Shown: positions 904-15,193 of the stretch, one piece after another | Position numbering within the stretch: position 1 is the stretch's first letter | How the letters are laid out: every line of letters begins with the position of its first letter | NCBI RefSeq assembly: GCF_004134905.2 | Contig: NZ_SDPQ02000002.1 | Location: 930,001-994,000 of the forward strand | Direction of reading: 5' to 3' | DNA from: Aeromicrobium ginsengisoli | GTDB taxonomy: Bacteria > Actinomycetota > Actinomycetes > Propionibacteriales > Nocardioidaceae | Length of the DNA stretch: 64,000 nucleotides | The notes under the pieces: model-generated | The model's input: only the letters and a program-made list of their open reading frames with translations | Database searches by the model: none | What the model was told of the DNA's origin: nothing | Translations under genes and position numbers: made by a program

Positions 904-2910
904 ATGACGGGTCGACTCGGAATTGACGATGTCAGACCTGTGTCCGGAGACGGCACCCATCCCTCCAAGGCCGTGGCCGGCGAGCACGTGCCGGTCACCG
1001 CCACCGTGTGGCGCGAGGGCCACGACGCCGTCGGCGCGACCGTCGTCTGGCGCGGCCCGGGGGAGCGCCGCGAGCGCGAGACCCGCATGCACGAGACGGG
1101 CAAGGACACCGACCTCTTCACCGCCACGATCGTCCCCGACGCCACCGGCCTCTGGACGTTCCGCGTCGACGCTTGGGGCGATCCGTGGGCGACGGTGCTC
1201 CACGCGATCGAGGTGAAGCTCGCCGCCGGCCAGACCGCGGCCGAGCTCGCCAACGACCTCGAGCTGGCCGCCCGCCTGCTCGACGAGGTGGCCGGCCGCA
1301 AGGAGCGCAAGGCACACCGCCCGGCGCTCGAGGGCGCCGCGACCGCTCTGCGCGCCGACAAGCTGCCGCTGGGCGCTCGGACGGGCCCGGCGCTGTCAGC
1401 CGACATCCGCGGGATCATGCACGACTTCCCCGTGCGCCAGGTCGTCACGAAGGGCCCGGTCCGCACAATCTGGGTCGACCGTCAGCGCGCTGCGTACGGC
1501 TCCTGGTACGAGTTCTTCCCCCGCTCGACCGGCGGCACCGACAAGAAGGGCCGGCCGGTCCACGGCACGTTCGCCACTGCCGCCAAAGAGCTCGACCGCG
1601 TCGCCGACATGGGCTTCGACGTCGTCTACCTGCCGCCGATCCACCCGATCGGCCGGGTCAACCGCAAGGGTCCCAACAACTCCCTGACGCCGGGCAAGAC
1701 CGATCCCGGCTCGCCGTGGGCCATCGGCGCCAAGGAGGGCGGCCACGACGCGATCCATCCCGAGCTCGGCAGCGACAAGGACTTCGCCGCGTTCGTGCAG
1801 CGCGCCAACGACCTCGGCATGGAGGTCGCCCTCGACCTCGCACTGCAGGTCGCACCCGATCATCCCTGGGTCAAGAAGCACCCCGAGTTCTTCACGACGC
1901 TGCCCGACGGCACGATCGCGTACGCCGAGAACCCGCCGAAGAAGTACCAGGACATCTACCCCCTCAACTTCGACAACGATCGCGACGCGATCTATGCCGA
2001 GATGCTGCGTGTGACGCTGCACTGGGTCGAGCGCGGCATCCGCATCTTCCGCGTCGACAACCCCCACACCAAGCCGCCGGACTTCTGGGCGTGGCTCATC
2101 GCGCAGGTCAAGGCCGAGCACCCTGACGTGCTGTTCCTCGCCGAGGCGTTCACCCGCCCGGCGCGGCTGTGGGGGCTGGCCAGGCTCGGCTTCACGCAGA
2201 GCTACACCTACTTCACCTGGCGCACGACCAAGCAGGAGCTGACCGAGTTCGCCGAGGATCACCGCGACCAGTGGGACATCGGCCGGCCCAACCTGTTCGT
2301 CAACACCCCCGACATCCTGCCCGAGCACCTGCAGATCGGCGGCCCGAGCATGTTCGCGATCCGGGCCGCCCTCGCCGCGACGCTCGCGCCGACGTGGGGC
2401 GTCTACTCCGGCTTCGAGCTCTACGAGCACAAGGCGGTCAAGCCCGGCAGCGAGGAGTATCTCGACTCCGAGAAGTACGAGCTGCGCCCCCGCGACTTCG
2501 ACAAGGCGCTCGCGGACGGCGAGTCCCTGCAGCCGTGGCTGACCCGGCTCAACGAGATCCGCCGTGCGCACCCAGCCCTGCAGCAGATGCGCACGCTCCA
2601 CTTCCATCACATCGACCACGACGCGCTGATGGTCTACTCCAAGCAGGACCCGGCCACCGGCGACACGGTCCTGGTCGTGGTCTCCCTCGACCCGCACGAG
2701 TCTCGCGAGGGCACGATGTGGCTCGACCTCCCCGCGCTCGGCTTCGCCCCCGGCGACCGGCTGATCGCGCACGACGAGGTCACCGGGGAGACCTACGACT
2801 GGGGCGAGTCCAACTACGTACGCCTCGACCCGTTGCGAGCCGTCGCCCACATCGTGACCCTGACCAGGCGTACGGACGCCGACGCCGACGACACGACCCT
2901 GAATGCCTGA
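904..2910 (+). CDS. glgE: GlgE: alpha-1,4-glucan:maltose-1-phosphate maltosyltransferase
   Basis: 668 aa, the usual GlgE length. It transfers maltose from alpha-maltose-1-phosphate to the non-reducing end of alpha-1,4-glucans in the cytoplasm. It is a GH13_3 enzyme: an N-terminal beta-sandwich (about 1-110), then the (beta/alpha)8 barrel. The nucleophile is Asp385 in [10 protein letters not shown] and the acid is Glu414 in FLAEAFTRP. The phosphate/maltose pocket segments '[11 protein letters not shown]' and '[17 protein letters not shown]' are also typical. GGGAG precedes the ATG. It is first in the operon glgE-treS-mak-glgB, whose products supply its substrate (TreS plus Mak) and branch its product (GlgB). 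Confidence 0.96.
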
Positions 2911-2926
2911 CCAAGGAGTGACGCGC

Positions 2927-4747
2927 ATGCCGCAGGACACCGCCCCCGACGCCGGCCTTGTGGGGTTGGAGGAGACGCCGCACACCGGAGAGGCGATCGC
3001 CGAGGACGGCACGCTCGTCGAGCCGCAGGCCGACGACTTCGGCCACGCCGAACAGGCCACGAGCGACCCCGAGTGGTTCAAGCGTGCCGTGTTCTACGAG
3101 GTGCTCGTCCGCGCGTTCTCCGACTCCAACGGCGACGGCACCGGCGACCTGCGAGGACTCGCCGACAAGCTCGACTACCTCCAGTGGCTCGGCGTCGACT
3201 GCCTGTGGCTGCCACCGTTCTACGCCTCGCCGCTGCGCGACGGCGGCTACGACATCAGCGACTTTCGCGCCGTGCTGCCCGAGTTCGGCACGGTCGAGGA
3301 CTTCGTCCACCTCCTTGAGGAGGCGCACAAGCGCGACATCCGCGTCATCACCGACCTCGTCCTCAACCACACCTCCGACGCGCACCCGTGGTTCCAGCAG
3401 TCCCGCAACGATCCCGACGGGCCCTACGGCGACTACTACGTGTGGGGCGACGACGACCAGCGCTACGCCGACGCGCGCATCATCTTCGTCGACACCGAGA
3501 CGTCCAACTGGACCTACGACCCCGTGCGCGGCCAGTTCTACTGGCACCGCTTCTTCAGCCACCAGCCCGACCTCAACTTCGAGAACGAAGAGGTCCAGGA
3601 GGCGATGCTCGACGTCCTGCGCTTCTGGCTCGACCTCGGCATCGACGGCTTCCGGCTCGACGCCGTGCCCTACCTGTTCGAGGAGGAGGGCACCAACTGC
3701 GAGAACCTCCCGCGTACGCACGAATACCTTCGCAAGTGCCGCGAGACCGTCGACCGGGAGTATCCCGGCCGCATCCTGCTCGCCGAGGCCAACCAGTGGC
3801 CGTCCGACGTGGTCGAGTACTTCGGCGATCCCAAGGTCGGCGGCGACGAGTGCCACATGGCGTTCCACTTCCCGCTCATGCCGCGCATCTTCATGGCCGT
3901 ACGCCGGGAGTCGCGGTTCCCGATCTCGGAGATCCTGGCCCAGACGCCGGAGATCCCGTCGGGCACCCAGTGGGGCATCTTCCTGCGCAACCACGACGAG
4001 CTGACGCTCGAGATGGTGACCGACGACGAGCGCGACTACATGTATCGCGAGTACGCCAGCGATCCGCGCATGAAGGCCAACATCGGCATCCGCCGGAGGC
4101 TCGCGCCCCTGCTCGACAACGACCGCAACCAGCTCGAGCTGTTCACCGCGATGCTGCTCAGCCTGCCGGGATCGCCCGTCCTCTACTACGGCGATGAGAT
4201 CGGGATGGGCGACAACATCTGGCTCGGCGACCGAGATGCCGTACGTACGCCGATGCAGTGGTCGCCCGACCGCAACGCCGGCTTCTCCAGGTCGGATCCC
4301 GGCCGCATCTACCTCCCGCCGATCATGGACCCGACCTACGGCTACGAGGCGATCAACGTCGAGGCGCAGCAGAGCAACGCGATGTCGCTGCTCAACTGGA
4401 CCCGCCGCATGATCGAGGTGCGCAAGCAGCACAACGCGTTCGCCGAGGGGGAGTTCGTCGACCTCGGCGGCTCGAACCCGAGCGTGCTGGCCTACAAGCG
4501 GGTCTGGGAACGGCCCGACGGCGAGAAGGACGTGGTCCTCTGCGTCAACAACCTCTCGAGGTTCCCGCAGCCCGTCGAGCTGGATCTGTCCGAGCACCTG
4601 ACCTACACGCCGGTCGAGCTGACCGGCAGCGTGCGCTTCCCGCGCATCGGCGAGCTGCCCTATCTGCTGACCCTGCCGGGCCACGGCTTCTACTGGTTCC
4701 AGCTGTCCGAGCTCGGCGACGAGGGCGAGAGGAGGAGCCAGGCATGA
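2927..4747 (+). CDS. treS: Trehalose synthase TreS (maltose alpha-D-glucosyltransferase)
   Basis: 606 aa GH13_16 enzyme interconverting trehalose and maltose. Its barrel opens with '[26 protein letters not shown]'-type residues near 45-70. The catalytic triad is visible: Asp245 (FRLDAVPY), Glu287 (LAEANQW) and Asp357 (RNHDELT). The start at 2927 is chosen because AAGGAG lies 8 nt upstream (2913-2918); an in-frame ATG at 2903 lies inside glgE and has no ribosome site. The stop overlaps the mak start (ATGA), so translation is probably coupled. The N-terminal 40 residues are acidic and poorly conserved. There is no fused maltokinase domain; that gene is separate here. Confidence 0.96.
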
Positions 4748-6153
4748 GTGGACCCGTTGAGGCCAACGAAGCGGTGACGTCACGCGACGAGCTCGTCGAG
4801 CACCTCGCCGCCGCGCTGCCCGAGTGGCTGCCGACCCAGCGCTGGTTCGGCGGCAAGGATCGCGAGATCACGGCCGTACGCCCGGTGTCGTGGACGACGC
4901 TGCTCGACGGCGACCCGTTGCTCATCCACCTCATCGTCGAGGTCGAGCAGGGTGATCGCACCGAGCCCTACCAGCTCCTGATCGGCAGTCGGCAGAGCCA
5001 GGTGCCCGACGTTGCGGCCTCGGCATCGATCGGGCTCGAGAACGGGCTGACCTGCTACGAGGCCAGCGGCGATGCTGATCTCACGGCCTGCCTGCTCGAG
5101 CTGATCATCGCCGGTGAGCCGGTCGACGAGCTGCGGTTCGAGCGCGAGCCCGACGTCGAGCTGACCGCGGGGCTCCGTGCGCACCCCATCACGTCCGAGC
5201 AGAGCAACACCTCGCTGGTCTACGGCAACCAGTACATCCTCAAGCTGTTCCGCAAGCTCACGCCCGGGCTCAACAAGGACCTCATGTTGCACCGCGCGCT
5301 CCGCGACGTGGACTGCCAGCACATCGCCGACCCGCTCGGCTCGATCTCGGGTGAGCTCCACGGGGAGGAGCTGACGATCGGGATGCTGCAGCGCTTCATG
5401 CCCGACGCCGCCGACGGCTGGGTCATGGCCACCACGAGCGTCCGCGACTTCATGGCCGATCCGTCAGGGCTGCCGCCGGAGGAGCTCGGCGGCGACTTCG
5501 CCGGCGAGGCATACCGGCTCGGCAAGGCCGTTGCCACGGTGCACGCCGACCTCGCGACGGCGCTCGGCACCGAGCTCGCCGATTCCGCCGAGCTCGAACG
5601 CACGGTCGCCGCCATGACGGAACGGCTCGACCGGGTCACCGCCGAGCTGCCGGCGCTGGCCGACCACGGCCCCGGGCTCCGCGAGGCGTTCGGCAAGGTC
5701 GCGGCGCTCCAGGACCCAGTGTCGATGCAGTACGTCCACGGCGATCTGCACCTCGGACAGGTCCTGCGGACGATCAACGGCTGGCTGTTGCTCGACTTCG
5801 AGGGTGAGCCGGCCGCGACGCTCGCCGAACGCTCCGCGCTGCGATCGCCGCTGCGCGATGTCGCCGGCATGCTGCGCTCGTTCGACTACGCCGCCCAGCA
5901 GCTGCTGGTCGGCCAGCCCGAGGACGCCGAACGCACCGCCCGCGCCATGCAGTGGGCGCGGCGCAACCGTGCCGCGTTCTGCGACGGCTATGCCCACGTC
6001 GCCGAGCACGACCCGCGCGACAGCGCGGACCTGCTGCGAGCCCTCGAGCTCGACAAGGCGGTCTACGAGGTCTCCTACGAGCACGCCAACCGGCCAGACT
6101 GGCTCACCGTGCCGCTGGCGTCAATCGACCGGATCATGACCGAAGGTGAGTGA
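4744..6153 (+). CDS. mak: Maltokinase (Pep2/Mak)
   Basis: 469 aa. It phosphorylates maltose at the anomeric carbon with ATP, giving the maltose-1-phosphate used by GlgE. The N-terminal cap has the signature '[14 protein letters not shown]' (about 29-42). The aminoglycoside-phosphotransferase-like C-lobe shows the catalytic loop '[13 protein letters not shown]' and the metal site 'LLLDFEGEP' near residues 335-360. The ATG at 4744 overlaps the treS stop and has GGAGG about 8 nt upstream. Separate TreS and Mak proteins are known to form a complex in mycobacteria, and the 4-nt overlap fits that. Confidence 0.95.
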
Positions 6154-6154
6154 G

Positions 6155-8086
<1,932 letters not shown>

Positions 8087-8135: not shown

Positions 8136-8272
8136 CTGCAGTGACTCGATCGAGGCGCGAATTCGGCAAGTCCGACGCGTCTCGCCGCGTCGCCGGAAGC
8201 AATGTGACACACGGTACGCATGGGGCATACTGAGCACGAAGTGCCACCCAGCGGTGTAGATGAAAGGGAGTC

Positions 8273-10924
8273 ATGACCGACTCAGAGTCCAACCAGCCGG
8301 TCGAGCGTCGGCGCGCCGACCCGTTGCAGGTCGCGGCCGACATGCTCGCGGACGAGGACGCGGAGAACACTCCCGCGCCGCGCCGGGACTCCGGTGCGAG
8401 CAAGGACGACTCAGCTCACCGAACCAGCCCCGACGACGTTCTGTCGCAGGCCGCCGCCAGCATCGACGAGAACACGACGTCCGAGGGCGACGACGATGAC
8501 AGCCCGCGTGCCCGCAGGGCAGCCGCACGTGCTGCGCGTCAGGCCGCGGCCGACAAGCGCAAGGCCGAGCGTGCTGCTGCCAAGGCGTTCGCAGCCTCCA
8601 AGCGTCATGCCGTACGCCGCGACGAACCGCAGGCTGAATCGGCTCCGCAGGAGAAGACTCTCGCCGAGAAGCTCGACGCCGCACGTCAGGCCGTGTCGAC
8701 GCCTCCCGACCAGGTCGACAACGAGACCGAGCGCACCGCGGCGTTCGACGCGGTGACCGAGAGCCCTGCCCAGGAAGCGCCCGTGGCCGAGCAGGCCGAG
8801 CCGGCGCAGGTCGAAGCGCCGGCCGAGACGACCGTTGAGCGGCCCGCCGCCGACGACACCGTGCACGGCTCGCCGTTCTCCGGCCTCGGTGGAGCGCAGA
8901 CGGCAGGAGAGCTTACGGGCGACGAGACCCCACAGCCCGAGCAGCCCCAGGTCGTCGAGGAGCCCGTCGTCGAGACGATCGAGAACGAAGCCCCCGCAGC
9001 GCCGGTCGAGGAGCCCCGGCCCGTCGAAGAGACCCAGCCCGTCGAGGAGCCAGCGCCCGTCGAAGAGACCCAGCCCGTCGAGGAGCCGGCAGCCGTCGAG
9101 ACTCCTCAAGCGGCGCCAGCGCCCGCCCAGGCCACGTTCGCGGAGAAGCTTGCTGCGGCCAGCGCCGCTGCACAGCAGCGGGTTGCACAGGCCCGCGCTG
9201 AGGCTGCGCGCCTGATGGAGGAGGCGGCTCGAGAGCGCGCCGAGGTCTCCGCACGACTGCAGTCCGACGAAGCCGCCCAGCGCGAGATCGCGGCACAGAA
9301 GCTCAAGGCCGCCGAGCAGGCTGCTGCCGAGCGCGTCAGCGCCGCCCAGCAGGAGGCCGACCGCGTCACCGCCGAGATCGAGCGCGAGCGCGCTGCCGCA
9401 GCGGCCAAGATCGCCGAGCTCCAGAAGGCCGCCGACGAGCGGGTCGCGGCTGCCAAGGCCGAGGCCGAGCGCCAGGCGCAGCAGCGCATCCAGCAGGCCA
9501 ACGCCGAGGCACTCCGCCTCGCCGAAGAGGCCGAGGCCGAAGCCAAGCGCGTCGCCGAGCGGCGCCTCGCCGAGTCCGAGCTGGCCGCCGAGGAGGCTGC
9601 CAACCGCCGCCTCCAGGCTGCCGAGCAGGACGCGCAGCGTCGCATCGAGGCCGCTCGTGCCGAGGCGGAGAACGTCGCCGCCCAGGCTGCCGCCGACCGT
9701 GAGGCTGCCCTGACGCAGCTCGCCAAGGAGCGCGAGGCCGCCGACGCCCGCCTCGTCGAGGTCAAGGCCGAGGCCGAGCGCATCGTCGCGGAGGCAGACC
9801 GTACGTCCGCCAGCCACGTCGCCGCGGCCCAGGCCGAGGCCGAGAAGGTCGCACAGCAGGCTGCCGCCGACCGCGAGGCCGCCCTCGCTCAACTCGCCAA
9901 GGAGCGCGAGGAGGCCGACGCCCGTCTGGCCGAGGTCAAGGCTGAGGCGGAGCGCACGGTCCGGGAGGCTGAGGAGTCCGCAGGCTCGCACGTCGCGGCC
10001 GCCAAGGCAGAGGCAGAGAAATACGCCCAGGAGACCGCCGCCGAGCGCGTCGCCATCGCCGTACGCGTGTCCGATGCGGAGCGTGCCGCCGAGGAGAAGC
10101 TCGTCGCCGCCAAGGTGCAAGCCGATCGCCTGGCCGCCGAGGCCGCACAGCGCCACGCCGAAGCCGCTGCCGAGCTCGCCCGTGAGCGTGACGAGGCCAA
10201 GGCCCTCGTCGAGCGCGCCAACGAAGAGGCCGACAAGCTGGCCAAGGAGGCCGAGGCAGAACGCGCTGAGGCCGCGGCGAAGCTCGCCGAGGCAGAGCGC
10301 ATGGCGGCCGAGAAGATCCGCGCGGCCCAGGCTGAGGCCGAGCGGGTCGCTGCCGAGGCCAACGAGGCCGCTCGGCAGGCCAGCGATGCTCGTGAGAAGG
10401 CCGAGCGCAAGCTCGCCGAGGACGTCGAGGCGGCTCGCCTCGATGCCGAGCGCAAGGTGGCCCAGGCCGAGAAGGATGCCGCCGAACGGATCGCCCAGGC
10501 ACAGGCCGAGGCCCGCCGCCTCGCGGAGAAGTCTGAGCAGGACGCGCGCGAGCGTGTCGCTGCTGCGCAGGCCGAGGCCGAGCGGGTCACGGTCCAGTCC
10601 AAGCGCGACGCGCAGGAACGCCTGAGCCAGGCCGTCGCTGCGGCACGCTCCGCAGCGGAGGAGAAGCTGCAGGAGGCCGAGCGCACGGCTCTGGAGTGGG
10701 TCGCTGCCGCTGAGGCCGAGGCCGAACGGGTCGCGCAGGAACACATCGTGATGGCCAACCACTCGTCGGCATCCACACCCCTGACGGCACCTGAGCCACT
10801 GGTTGACGAGTACGTCGACGAGGCACCCGACGCTGACACCGATGAACATTCGCCCGAGGAGGTGAATGACGACTCCGGGCAGGTCGCCCCCAAGATCAAA
10901 AAAAGGGTCGTCCGACGCAAGTGA
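8273..10924 (+). CDS. Large Ala/Glu-rich coiled-coil protein, function unknown
   Basis: 883 aa. I do not recognise a named family. Residues about 1-275 are acidic and disordered, with PVEE/PVEET repeats near 240-280. Residues about 285-825 are an almost continuous heptad/hendecad coiled coil of the type 'AEAERVAAEA...', with no membrane segment or signal peptide. The C-terminus is acidic, then ends in a basic KIKKRVVRRK tail. A 58-residue unit is duplicated in tandem. An AAAGGGAG ribosome site precedes the ATG. Composition recalls DivIVA/FilP/Scy-type cytoskeletal scaffolds, but no DivIVA N-terminal motif is present. It overlaps the next gene by 59 nt, so the two products probably act together. 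Confidence 0.8.
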   Translation: MTDSESNQPVERRRADPLQVAADMLADEDAENTPAPRRDSGASKDDSAHRTSPDDVLSQAAASIDENTTSEGDDDDSPRARRAAARAARQAAADKRKAERAAAKAFAASKRHAVRRDEPQAESAPQEKTLAEKLDAARQAVSTPPDQVDNETERTAAFDAVTESPAQEAPVAEQAEPAQVEAPAETTVERPAADDTVHGSPFSGLGGAQTAGELTGDETPQPEQPQVVEEPVVETIENEAPAAPVEEPRPVEETQPVEEPAPVEETQPVEEPAAVETPQAAPAPAQATFAEKLAAASAAAQQRVAQARAEAARLMEEAARERAEVSARLQSDEAAQREIAAQKLKAAEQAAAERVSAAQQEADRVTAEIERERAAAAAKIAELQKAADERVAAAKAEAERQAQQRIQQANAEALRLAEEAEAEAKRVAERRLAESELAAEEAANRRLQAAEQDAQRRIEAARAEAENVAAQAAADREAALTQLAKEREAADARLVEVKAEAERIVAEADRTSASHVAAAQAEAEKVAQQAAADREAALAQLAKEREEADARLAEVKAEAERTVREAEESAGSHVAAAKAEAEKYAQETAAERVAIAVRVSDAERAAEEKLVAAKVQADRLAAEAAQRHAEAAAELARERDEAKALVERANEEADKLAKEAEAERAEAAAKLAEAERMAAEKIRAAQAEAERVAAEANEAARQASDAREKAERKLAEDVEAARLDAERKVAQAEKDAAERIAQAQAEARRLAEKSEQDARERVAAAQAEAERVTVQSKRDAQERLSQAVAAARSAAEEKLQEAERTALEWVAAAEAEAERVAQEHIVMANHSSASTPLTAPEPLVDEYVDEAPDADTDEHSPEEVNDDSGQVAPKIKKRVVRRK
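9659..10006 (+). repeat. 174-bp tandem duplication inside the coiled-coil gene
   Basis: Two consecutive 58-codon units (9659-9832 and 9833-10006), both beginning AEAE(N/K)V and ending SHVAAA(Q/K), are identical at about 45 of 58 residues. The length is not a multiple of seven but fits mixed heptad/hendecad packing, and it suggests growth of the rod by unequal exchange. Confidence 0.8.
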
Positions 10925-13262
10925 GGTCCTGACTGCCGGTTCCATCGCCGCTGATCTCGTCGACGACGACACGTCTGACGAGATCACCTCGGGTACGTCC
11001 GGGGTTTCGGCGACGTTCGACCTGCCCCAGGCGATCAACCGGGTCGAGCCGATCGAGGACCCTCCGGCACGGGAGATCGCTGCTCCGGAGCCCGAGCCTG
11101 CTCCCAGCCGGAGCGAGCTCAAGGCTGCCCGGCGTGAGGAGCGCGCGGAAGCCAAGGCCGCTCGCCGCCGTGAGCACGAGGAAGCTGTTCAGGCCAAGGT
11201 CGAGGCCAAGCGTCAGGCACGCGAGGAACGCGAGCAGGCGAAGCAACGCGAGCACGAGGAACGCGAGCAGGCGAAGCAGCGCGAACGCGAGGAACGCGAG
11301 CAGGCGAAGCAGCGCGAACGCGAGGAACGCGAGCAGGCGAAGCAGGCCGAGCGTGAGCAGGCCGAGCAACGGGCCCACGAGGAGCGTGAGCAGGCCGAGC
11401 AACGGGCCCACGAGGAGCGTGAGCAGGCCGAGCAACGGGCCCGCGAGGAACGCGAGCAGGCCGAGCGACAGGCTGCCGCCGCTCGCGAGCAGGAGGCCGC
11501 CGATCAGGCTGCTCGTGAGCAGGAAGCCGCCGACGAGGCCGCCCGCGAGCAGGAAGCGGCCGAGTCCGATGAGTCCCAGGACGTTGCGGAGCCCGTCGTC
11601 ACCGAGGCTGAGCCGCTGGTCGAGCCTGAGCCGCAACCCGTCGCTCCCACCCAGGCGACCATCGGGCTGACCAAGCGACTCGAGGCCGAGCGGCTGAGGC
11701 TCGCCGCCGAGCGGGAGAAGCGCGAGGCCGAGGAGCAGGCACGCGTCGAGCAGGAAAAGGCAGACGCCGCTGCGGAGGAGGCGAAGCTCGCCGCTCGCCG
11801 CGAGCGTGACGAGGCCAAGTCGGCCTCTCGCCAGGCGCGCGTCGACGCCAAGCTCGAGCGCAAGCGCGCCAAGGAGGCCCGACTCGACGCCAAGCACGCG
11901 GCACGCCAGCAACGCAACGAGGACCGCGAGCGGGCCGCCGCAGCCAAGATCCAGGCGCGTGCCGAGGCCGCCGCGGCGAAGGCAGCCGAGCGCGTCGACA
12001 CGCGTACCGCTGAGATGGAGGCCCCCGAGATCACCCAGCCGGCTGTGGCCGCCGAGGCCGAGATGCCGGCAGCCGCGCTCCGGGACATCGAGGTCGAGTC
12101 GGTCGAGACCGTCATCGACGCGCCCGACGAGCCGGGCCAGACTGCCCCCGACGTCGAGGCCGAACCGTCCACCGACGAGATGGCCGCCGCTGGTGACGCC
12201 AGGGCCGAGGTCAGGGAAGCCAAGCGCGCCGCGCGCCGCGAACGCAACGAAGCGAAGCAAGCCGCCCGTCAGGCACGCGTCGATGCCAAGGAGTCGGCCC
12301 GGCAGGAGCGCCTCGAAGCCAAGGACGCGCTGCGTCGCGAGAGGCAGGAAGCCGAGGACGCCGTACGCCGCGAGCGCGAGGAAGCCAAGGAAGCTGCGCG
12401 TCGCGAGCGTGAAGAGGCTGAGAAGGCCGAGCAGCTGGCTCGTGAGGACGCTGAGCGTCGTGAGCGCGAGGAGGCTGAGAAGGCCGAGCAGCTGGCTCGT
12501 GAGGACGCTGAGCGTCGTGAGCGCGAGGAGGCCGAGAAGGCCGCGCCGGTCGAGGAGCCTGAGCAGGCGGACGAAGATCTGCCAGAACAGGTCGAGGCTG
12601 AAGCTGCCGACGAGCCGTTGGACGCCGACGAACAGGTCGATGTCGACGAGTCCACCGACGAGCCGGTGGACGCGGACGAACAGGTCGACGACAGCGACGA
12701 CGTCGAGGACGAGAAGCAGATCGCCGCTCGCGTGGCCGCTGAGGCCCGCGAGGCCCAGCGCCTCGAGCGCCAGCAGGCCAAGGAGGCCGCCCGCCGCGAG
12801 CGCGAGGAGTCCAAGGCCGCTGCCCGCGACGCCAAGGCCGCGCACCGCGCCGAGAAGAAGGCCGACCGCGTCGTCGAGGCGCCCCGTGAGCCCAAGGTCT
12901 CGTTCCTGGAGCGCCGCCGCAAGAAGGCGGCCGAACGCGATCCGAGCAAGGCTTCGGGCGGCCGCAACGTCATCGCGGTGCTCGCCGTGACGGTCGGGGC
13001 CCTGGGCCTGGTCTGTTCGCTCGTCCTGGCGATCGGCGCCTTCATGGCGGCGCTCGGCACGACGGACAGCAACAGTGCCTACGACACGCTTTCGTCACTG
13101 TGCGACACGCTCGTGGGGCCACTGCGGGACGTCTTCTCGTTCTCCGGCACCAACGCCGAGATGAAGGAGGCCGTGGTCTCCTGGGGCGGCGGTTCGATGA
13201 TCTACGTGCTCGTCGGGATGTTCGCGCAGTCCTACCTGCGGTCCCGCATCGACGACGACTGA
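10866..13262 (+). CDS. Membrane-anchored charged single-helix protein, function unknown
   Basis: 798 aa; not recognised. Residues about 75-215 are tandem 11-residue units of the type EEREQAKQRER, an E/R/K/Q pattern typical of isolated single alpha-helices. Further charged helix segments (about 275-380, 440-560, 615-690) are separated by acidic linkers. A hydrophobic segment at about 701-731 and another near 778-792 form a C-terminal anchor, enclosing a short loop with a cysteine. The bulk is therefore probably cytoplasmic. AGGAGG ends 3 nt before the ATG, inside the previous gene, so translation is likely coupled. Similar composition and overlap with the preceding coiled-coil gene suggest a two-part scaffold. 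Confidence 0.78.
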   Translation: MTTPGRSPPRSKKGSSDASEVLTAGSIAADLVDDDTSDEITSGTSGVSATFDLPQAINRVEPIEDPPAREIAAPEPEPAPSRSELKAARREERAEAKAARRREHEEAVQAKVEAKRQAREEREQAKQREHEEREQAKQREREEREQAKQREREEREQAKQAEREQAEQRAHEEREQAEQRAHEEREQAEQRAREEREQAERQAAAAREQEAADQAAREQEAADEAAREQEAAESDESQDVAEPVVTEAEPLVEPEPQPVAPTQATIGLTKRLEAERLRLAAEREKREAEEQARVEQEKADAAAEEAKLAARRERDEAKSASRQARVDAKLERKRAKEARLDAKHAARQQRNEDRERAAAAKIQARAEAAAAKAAERVDTRTAEMEAPEITQPAVAAEAEMPAAALRDIEVESVETVIDAPDEPGQTAPDVEAEPSTDEMAAAGDARAEVREAKRAARRERNEAKQAARQARVDAKESARQERLEAKDALRRERQEAEDAVRREREEAKEAARREREEAEKAEQLAREDAERREREEAEKAEQLAREDAERREREEAEKAAPVEEPEQADEDLPEQVEAEAADEPLDADEQVDVDESTDEPVDADEQVDDSDDVEDEKQIAARVAAEAREAQRLERQQAKEAARREREESKAAARDAKAAHRAEKKADRVVEAPREPKVSFLERRRKKAAERDPSKASGGRNVIAVLAVTVGALGLVCSLVLAIGAFMAALGTTDSNSAYDTLSSLCDTLVGPLRDVFSFSGTNAEMKEAVVSWGGGSMIYVLVGMFAQSYLRSRIDDD
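11223..11321 (+). repeat. 33-bp tandem repeats encoding the single-helix units
   Basis: Three consecutive 33-bp units start at 11223, 11256 and 11289, each beginning GAGGAACGCGAGCAGGCGAA. They differ at only a few bases. A diverged second family of 33-bp units (GAGGAGCGTGAGCAGGCCGA) follows to about 11460. Such near-identical units predict length variation between strains. Confidence 0.85.
12414..12527 (+). repeat. Perfect 57-bp tandem duplication
   Basis: 12414-12470 and 12471-12527 are identical, each beginning GAGGCTGAGAAGG and encoding a 19-residue helix unit EAEKAEQ...RERE. Perfect identity in a gene otherwise full of diverged repeats indicates a recent duplication. Confidence 0.9.
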
Positions 13263-13450: not shown

Positions 13451-14230
13451 GTGACCAAAATCGTTGTCGCTGTGAAGTACGTTCCGGATGCCACGGCTGA
13501 CCGGACCTTCAGCGCCGATAACACCGTCGACCGTGTTGGTGTTGATGGTTTGCTGTCCGAGCTTGATGAGTACGCGGTGGAGCAGGCGCTCCAGGTCGTC
13601 GAGGCCGGCGAGGGTGAGGTCACCGTCCTGACGGTGGGCCCCGAGCAGGCTTCCGATGCGGTGCGCAAGGCCCTGCAGATGGGCGCCGACGCGGGCGTGC
13701 ACGTGCAGGACGACGCGATTCACGGTTCGGACGCGTTCGCGACGTCGCTGGTGCTGGCTGAGGCGATCAAGAAGCTCGACTACGACCTGGTGTTCTTCGG
13801 CATGGCGTCGACCGACGGTGGTCTGGGTGTCGTTCCGACCCTCGTCGCCGAGCGTCTGGGCCTGCCGGCAGTCACGTTCGCGTCGGAGGTCAGCGTTGAC
13901 GGTGACACGGTCAAGATCCGCCGCGACGGCGATGTCGCCACGCAGGAGATCGAGGCGTCCGGCAAGGTCGTCGTCTCGGTGACGGACCAGTCCGGTGAGG
14001 CTCGTTATCCGTCGTTCAAGGGCATCATGGCCGCCAAGAAGAAGGACGTCCAGGAGTGGACGCTCGCCGATCTCGGCCTCGACGCCGGCTCGGTCGGCCT
14101 CGACAACGCGTGGACCAAGGTCGAGTCGTTCGAGCCCCGCCCGCCGCGCACTGCCGGTGAGATCGTCACGGACGAGGGAGACGGCGGCGCCAAGCTCGTC
14201 GAGTTCCTCGCCTCCAAGAAGTTCGTCTGA
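13451..14230 (+). CDS. etfB: Electron transfer flavoprotein beta subunit
   Basis: 259 aa from the GTG at 13451 (AGGAGG 6 nt upstream; protein begins VTKIVVAVKYVPD). The open frame extends 26 codons further upstream, but that part is not family-like. The heterodimer EtfAB carries electrons from acyl-CoA and related dehydrogenases to ETF:quinone oxidoreductase. Visible family features are the N-terminal 'KxVPD' strand, the adenine-nucleotide fold 'EVTVLTVGPEQASDAVRKALQMGAD', 'G..a.D.g.GvVp..vAe.Lg.P' and the C-terminal 'ARYPSFKGIMAAKKK' membrane/partner-recognition loop. etfA follows after 15 nt. Confidence 0.96.
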   Translation: MTKIVVAVKYVPDATADRTFSADNTVDRVGVDGLLSELDEYAVEQALQVVEAGEGEVTVLTVGPEQASDAVRKALQMGADAGVHVQDDAIHGSDAFATSLVLAEAIKKLDYDLVFFGMASTDGGLGVVPTLVAERLGLPAVTFASEVSVDGDTVKIRRDGDVATQEIEASGKVVVSVTDQSGEARYPSFKGIMAAKKKDVQEWTLADLGLDAGSVGLDNAWTKVESFEPRPPRTAGEIVTDEGDGGAKLVEFLASKKFV

Positions 14231-14245
14231 GAAGGGCACTGACAC

Positions 14246-15193
14246 ATGACTGAAGTACTCGTTCTGATCGACGCCCCTGACGGCAAGGTCACCAAGCCTT
14301 CGCTCGAGCTGCTCACGATCGCCCGCCGCATCGGCGAGCCGTCCGCGGTGGTCTTCGGGTCGGCCGACAACGCCACGCTCACCGAATACGGTGCGGAGAA
14401 GATCTACACGTACGACGACGCCGCCTACGCCGAGTTCCTGGTCGGCCCCAAGGCCGAGGCGCTCGCGCAGCTCGTCGCCGACAAGTCCCCGGCTGCCGTG
14501 CTCGTCGGCGCCAGCACCGAGGGCAAGGAGATCAGCGCCCGGGTGGCGCTCAAGACAGAGTCCGGCTGGATCAGCGACGCGGTCGACGTGCAGGCCGATG
14601 GTGGCACCATCACCACGACCCAGTCGGTGTTCGCCGGCAACTTCACCGTGAAGTCCAACGTGACCAAGGGCGCGCCGGTCATCACGGTCAAGCCCAACTC
14701 GACCGCTCCGGAGGCTGCACCGGCTGCAGGTGCTGTCGAAGCGGTCACGGCTGACATCTCCGACGCTGCCAAGACGGCCAAGATCACGTCGTCCAAGCCC
14801 AAGGAGGCTTCGGGTCGTCCGGAGCTGACCGAGGCCGCGATCGTGGTGTCGGGTGGACGTGGCACCGGTGGCGACTTCTCCGAGGTCGAGGCGTTCGCCG
14901 ACTCGCTCGGTGCTGCTGTTGGGGCGTCCCGTGCGGCGGTCGACTCGGGTTGGTACCCGCACTCGTTCCAGGTCGGCCAGACCGGCAAGACCGTTTCGCC
15001 GCAGCTGTATGTCGCCAACGGCATCTCCGGTGCGATCCAGCACAGGGCCGGCATGCAGACGTCCAAGACGATCATCGCGGTCAACAAGGACGACGAGGCA
15101 CCGATCTTCGAGCTCGTCGACTTCGGCGTCGTGGGCGACCTCAAGGCCGTCCTCCCGCAGGCCACCGAAGAGATCAAGAAGCGCAAGGGCTGA
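14246..15193 (+). CDS. etfA: Electron transfer flavoprotein alpha subunit
   Basis: 315 aa. It provides the FAD-binding domain of the ETF heterodimer. The C-terminal half (about 190-315) has the classic signature '[32 protein letters not shown]', then '[27 protein letters not shown]' and '[24 protein letters not shown]', which cradles FAD. The N-terminal half is the diverged Rossmann-like domain that pairs with EtfB. It is separated from etfB by 15 nt and followed by a strong hairpin, so etfBA is a two-gene operon. Confidence 0.97.

Follow-up and report, generated by a model that had tools for sequence, protein, structure and literature searches.

A tentative +1 frameshift at a conserved AAA_AGR site that may set the ratio of free to membrane-tethered rods in Aeromicrobium and a sister genus

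Introduction

Do two large overlapping genes for rod-like proteins encode two separate proteins, or two forms of a single rod? The question is raised by a pair of ORFs, here called P1 and P2, in a 64-kb window (the whole stretch of DNA that was analysed, 64,000 nucleotides) of Aeromicrobium ginsengisoli. A preliminary description gave these as ORFs of 883 and 798 amino acids, with a 59-nt overlap and a perfect AGGAGG inside P1, all of which is exact in the sequence. It read the pair as a scaffold or tether made of a coiled-coil rod and a membrane-anchored charged partner, and the analysis below supports that reading. Its two components, however, may be one rod in a free and an anchored form, as the two frames are probably joined by frameshifting. 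Frameshifting is known from few chromosomal genes of bacteria.

The features discussed are as follows (window coordinates, strand, basis where recorded):

8204-8231, +, promoter-like site immediately 5' of P1 (consensus match only)
8273-10924, +, P1 ORF, 883-aa soluble protein (ORF list; coding by substitution pattern)
9137-10762, +, helical rod of P1 (residues 289-830), hendecad and rich in Ala (periodicity, AlphaFold2, pN/pS)
9659-10049, +, 174-bp (58-residue) tandem duplication within the P1 rod (sequence comparison)
10857-10862, +, Shine-Dalgarno AGGAGG of P2, inside P1, three bases 5' of the ATG at 10866 (sequence)
10866-13262, +, P2 ORF, 798 aa, frame +1 to P1, with an ATG start in this genome (ORF list)
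10898-10906, +, candidate shift site AAAAAAAGG, P1 codons AAA AAA AGG (conservation, codon bias, rarity)
10922-10924, +, P1 stop codon TGA (sequence)
10929-10958, +, conserved P2-frame motif LTAGSIAADL, just 3' of the P1 stop
11106-12905, +, fast-evolving charged part of P2 (residues 81-680), made of four helix-prone segments joined by acidic linkers
12963-13259, +, membrane domain of P2 (residues 700-798), with two helices and family-wide conservation
13451-15193, +, etfB and etfA, conserved downstream neighbours

P1 contains a strongly constrained rod

Both reading frames behaved as protein-coding sequence. Compared with three relatives, substitutions fell mostly at codon position 3, with dN/dS values of 0.09-0.13 for P1 and 0.25-0.35 for P2. 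Two promoter-like sites were found, against 0.1 expected in shuffled sequences. The high-GC codon bias of P1 and P2 probably accounts for two very long antisense ORFs on the minus strand, at 8411-11155 (914 aa) and 10896-12845 (649 aa).

P1 had been described as consisting almost entirely of heptad or hendecad repeats. This held for residues 289-830, where the repeat is hendecad rather than heptad, but not for residues 1-288, which are of low complexity, acidic and Pro-rich, and mostly predicted to be disordered; residues 78-111 form a short helix of basic character within this region. The rod is ~540 residues long and was modelled by AlphaFold2 as two helices (289-496 and 515-830). Its hydrophobic residues gave a Fourier peak at 3.67 residues and a spacing of 11, and Ala made up 34% of its residues; on this pattern the rod is a predicted hendecad coiled coil. 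The tandem duplication lengthens it by 58 residues in this genome compared to five aligned orthologues.

The rod changes very slowly. Its pN/pS was 0.012-0.033 over 540 residues when this genome was compared with three close relatives. EtfB had higher values than the rod in two of the close pairs (0.037 and 0.041) and a lower value in the third (0.017), and at the larger distance of genome G027 pN/pS was 0.108 for the rod and 0.092 for EtfB. FilP gave 0.16-0.18 in the close-relative comparison. As the constraint on the P1 rod is stronger than one would expect of a passive spacer, we infer that it packs against partners or against itself over its entire length.

P2 ends in a conserved membrane domain

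P2 begins with an 80-residue start region, followed by the four charged segments (62-152 residues each; 47-59% charged and 2-11% hydrophobic residues), which are split by acidic, Pro- and Val-rich linkers. This arrangement does not agree with the uninterrupted single alpha-helix initially proposed for P2. Charge pairing at i,i+3 and i,i+4 was not above that of shuffled sequence (z -1.7 to 0.3 across the four segments), and the E-R i+4 count alone reached z 1.9 in one segment. A single alpha-helix in P2 is therefore possible, but the charge pattern that defines one does not support it. Residues 1-680 had a pN/pS of 0.32-0.52 among close relatives, and this part of P2 varies greatly in length.

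The two hydrophobic segments noted earlier at the C-terminus of P2 are present. The last ~98 residues were modelled as two long helices flanking a shorter one (AlphaFold2 pLDDT 83). An Arg/Lys-rich flank precedes the first membrane helix, so that the charged part of P2 would lie on the cytoplasmic side by the positive-inside rule.

Neither P1 nor P2 had a credible match in Pfam, NCBIfam or PDB sequence searches, in line with the earlier failure to recognise a family. Borderline Pfam matches (DUF5671, IncE, SseC and RASSF) were all under the curated cut-offs and were set aside. The structural matches of the membrane domain were likewise rejected as generic helix hairpins, both with Foldseek (best E 0.94) and with VIA-align (best Z 8.0, in a range common for helical models).

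The overlap holds a rare and conserved AAA_AGR site

The 3' end of P1 reads CCC AAG ATC AAA AAA AGG GTC GTC CGA CGC AAG TGA, and the P2 frame opens at a TGA immediately 5' of the P2 start codon. The preliminary description overlooked a run of seven As (A7, 10898-10904) inside the overlap; nowhere else in the window do six or more As or Ts follow one another. The 4.0-Mb genome contains three A7 runs, and AAAAAAAGR occurs in it only once.

AAA followed by AG was present in all 31 orthologues and AAA_AGR (AGA or AGG) in 30 of them, while the full A7 was found in 24, the other seven having 4-5 As. For comparison, AAA accounts for 2% of Lys codons and AGR for 3.3% of Arg codons in the upstream regions of P1 and the genes of the window. 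The 31 orthologues are the 29 genomes of the de-duplicated codon table together with G016 and G071, and the binomial P values for both codon bias and start codons ignore shared ancestry. Since the overlap is read in two frames, KKR in P1 and KK[GE] in P2 together would also fix A-rich codons. RNA structure in the overlap was not above shuffled sequences in this genome, and an Rfam search gave no match.

Ten species have no P2 start codon before the A-run

In 10 of 30 Aeromicrobium genomes, the P2 frame has no ATG, GTG or TTG before the A-run, and the codon after the TGA is GCG or ACG. The table behind this count lists one genome twice (L124 is the same as G318) and misses G016. All ten have A7 and an open P2 frame. 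Their first ATG, GTG or TTG lies 12-196 codons past the P1 stop, and the 657 codons between these two points contained no stops in the P2 frame, compared to 12 and 15 in the other frames. The LTAG motif falls inside this start-less stretch in four genomes (G005, G019, G136 and G011); genomes with a P2 start have it too, and the sister genus has it as PTAG. For pairs of start-less genomes, a dN/dS estimate over the P2 codons that precede the first start was discarded, as that stretch was too short to inform.

The P2 start state changed at least eight times on the P1 tree, a quick tree with several long branches, and the shift site was kept throughout. AAT or AGT codons, which create a P2 start, were found in 16 of 30 rows, compared to a background of 5.6%. 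Most species keep a start codon and Shine-Dalgarno sequence under selection, so that P2 is probably made separately there: about two thirds of species can, as judged by these signals, also start P2 alone at the internal Shine-Dalgarno sequence and ATG or GTG. The Shine-Dalgarno sequence is weakened in some start-less species (G024 and G012). There thus appear to be two routes to the membrane domain, with AAA-then-AG common to all species.

Frameshifting and its alternatives

A conserved AAA_AGR, together with an open, start-less P2 frame in ten species, points to a +1 shift. We consider it reasonably likely that P1 shifts into the P2 frame to yield a membrane-anchored fusion beside free P1. 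The locus has two properties of recoded genes: a re-pairing site kept against codon bias, and a downstream frame that is open and, in the start-less third of Aeromicrobium genomes with P1, has no start of its own. P1 itself would act as a soluble scaffold built as a hendecad coiled coil. At the 3' end of its gene, a minority of ribosomes would slip by +1, since tRNA-Lys could pair again, perfectly, one base further along AAA_AGR while the A site holds a rare Arg codon; alternatively, a minority of transcripts might enter the P2 frame through the loss of one A of the A7 run by RNA polymerase. The fusion would comprise 1,662 aa, with P1 residues 1-877 followed by P2 from residue 14 and the two-helix membrane domain last. 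Free and anchored subunits would share one rod and could co-assemble, and the shift rate would then determine the density at which the scaffold is tethered on the cytoplasmic side of the membrane. The complete picture, in which a cytoskeleton-like rod of one actinobacterial genus and its sister genus has its free-to-tethered ratio set by the conserved AAA_AGR frameshift, is a more tentative proposal, and one that we hold as possible.

P1 and P2 could instead be two separate proteins of translationally coupled, overlapping genes, with P2 starting at the internal Shine-Dalgarno sequence (and at ACG where ATG or GTG is missing), and with the codons of the A-run fixed by KKR and KK[GE]. The retention and selection of these start signals in two thirds of species fits this, and in 24 of 24 distinct rows a conserved stretch further downstream is able to base-pair with the Shine-Dalgarno sequence, which is typical of coupling. 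In P1, the synonymous positions that precede the A-run are under constraint in start-less genomes too (GGG in 9/9 and CCC in 9/9), as expected if P2 starts upstream, perhaps at ACG; such constraint is also expected from an RNA element such as a weak GGGG/CCCC hairpin or a pairing that hides the Shine-Dalgarno sequence. However, ten species without ATG, GTG or TTG, which arose through several changes of state and in some cases have a weakened Shine-Dalgarno sequence, have kept both A7 and the open P2 frame. This argues against coupling, which we regard as rather unlikely.

Transcriptional slippage, in which A7 becomes A6, would be a sub-case of the fusion that replaces the ribosomal shift. A precedent is an insertion sequence of Roseiflexus, where a nascent stem-loop leads to the loss of one base in transcription (PMC5009743), and a weak GGGG/CCCC stem does lie 5' of the A-run in P1. 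The A-run itself is favoured as the active element by its lengths, as within Aeromicrobium every run of fewer than seven As is accompanied by a P2 start, and every start-less species has A7. Yet the association between run length and start was not significant (Fisher P 0.14, phylogeny uncorrected and with one duplicate row), and the seven orthologues with only 4-5 As still keep AAA_AGR. The universal presence of AAA-then-AG favours ribosomes, and slippage seems to us unlikely, somewhat more so than coupling.

It is very improbable that the charged part of P2 is a functionless, fast-drifting extension of low complexity and the pair dispensable, since the fast evolution and very variable length of P2 residues 1-680, and the lack of a P1 match in 19 of 49 Aeromicrobium genomes (some incomplete; several without both genes), are set against a rod pN/pS of 0.01-0.03 in three close pairs and a membrane domain conserved across the family and beyond.

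Comparison with known systems

The proposed +1 frameshift resembles that of Ty1, at CUU_AGG_C (PMC5009743), in that the P-site tRNA would pair anew one base on while the A site holds a rare Arg codon. Unlike Ty1, the P1 site is bacterial and would use tRNA-Lys on AAA, and its shift is a predicted one. Other recoded genes with a short and an extended product are dnaX, phage tail GT and Roseiflexus IS630 (PMC5009743). P1 shares with these an A-rich site, an open second frame and two potential products with a common N-terminus. It differs from them in its proposed +1 transition at AAA_AGR and in its setting, a gene for a coiled coil in an actinobacterium of high GC content; the extension, itself a predicted product, would add a membrane anchor.

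Among the cytoskeletal proteins of actinobacteria, Scy and FilP are coiled coils with a hendecad repeat (PMC9858780, PMC3718342), and P1 is similarly a long, Ala-rich hendecad rod that is cytoplasmic and actinobacterial. A GYDxxEVD motif at the N-terminus defines the DivIVA-like superfamily of DivIVA, GpsB, FilP, Scy and PolyDIV (PMC9858780). Unlike Scy and FilP, P1 has neither this motif nor a DivIVA domain, and its gene overlaps that of a membrane anchor. A pattern search for the motif was negative for both P1 and P2, as the preliminary description had it, and the DivIVA profile PF05103 matched neither protein. The DivIVA of this genome (G000:C1:593991) and its FilP-like gene (G000:C2:884013) lie elsewhere and match PF05103. 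P1 also evolves about ten times more slowly than the genome's own FilP and lies at a different locus. The FilP-like gene (G000:C2:884013-884396, minus strand, ~400 aa, with the GYD motif) is separate from P1. It adjoins a gene that reads as a crotonyl-CoA carboxylase/reductase, which is the context reported for FilP.

In TolA/TonB-type proteins, a long Ala/Glu/Lys-rich helical stretch is joined to a membrane segment. P2 also combines a long, charged, helix-prone stretch with a membrane segment, but its anchor is C-terminal and has two membrane helices, its charged part is predicted to be cytoplasmic, and it has no family match.

Our literature search, which left subscription journals mostly outside its coverage, returned no described frameshifting in a structural coiled coil, no paper on Aeromicrobium coiled coils and none on a bacterial AAA AGG shift site. 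If the proposal is true, P1 would have a simple genetic dial for the strength of the tie between scaffold and membrane, a chromosomal recoding signal in the service of cell architecture, and possibly a new kind of control for a bacterial scaffold.

Distribution and origin

Among 246 genomes of the family Nocardioidaceae, P1 was confined to Aeromicrobium (30 of 49 genomes) and one sister genus. Within the family, 107 of 150 genomes, from 16 of 26 genera, contained the membrane domain; relatives also turned up in further families, both in the order and in the class. At most of the Nocardioidaceae loci read it is a stand-alone protein of ~125-160 aa encoded directly upstream of etfBA, and an enoyl-CoA hydratase gene often precedes it. 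This small membrane domain, conserved next to etfBA across the family, has no match in Pfam or NCBIfam. A link of this unnamed two-helix family to ETF or fatty-acid oxidation is a possibility.

Some Aeromicrobium genomes (G031 and G009) have a P2 of ~311-319 aa without P1, and at least six (G006, G007, G018, G110, G129 and G169) matched neither P1 nor the membrane domain. In G169, etfB lies directly next to the enoyl-CoA hydratase gene. This distribution suggests an order of events: the small membrane protein probably came first, then the charged extension, and P1 was then inserted. The membrane domain is in this view an older, small protein that was later extended by the other parts. Two observations were dropped. 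A 1,741-aa ORF with the membrane domain in G142, considered as a natural fusion, reads as a high-GC open frame running through unrelated DNA into a short homologue, and a Spearman correlation between P1 and P2 lengths (0.44, P 0.05) was affected by several misassigned P2 starts.

The position of the pair between glgB and etfB was conserved on the etfB side, while glgB adjoins P1 only in the closest relatives. The suggestion that the proteins organise the adjacent glucan enzymes loses its footing with this restricted adjacency. The GlgE-pathway cluster itself (glgE, a treS-like amylase gene, the maltokinase gene and glgB) lies at 904-8086.

Nature provides variants for comparison, namely start-less species, species without A7 and species without both genes. 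The Aeromicrobium genomes without P1 and the membrane domain (L072 and L074-L078) are natural comparison strains.
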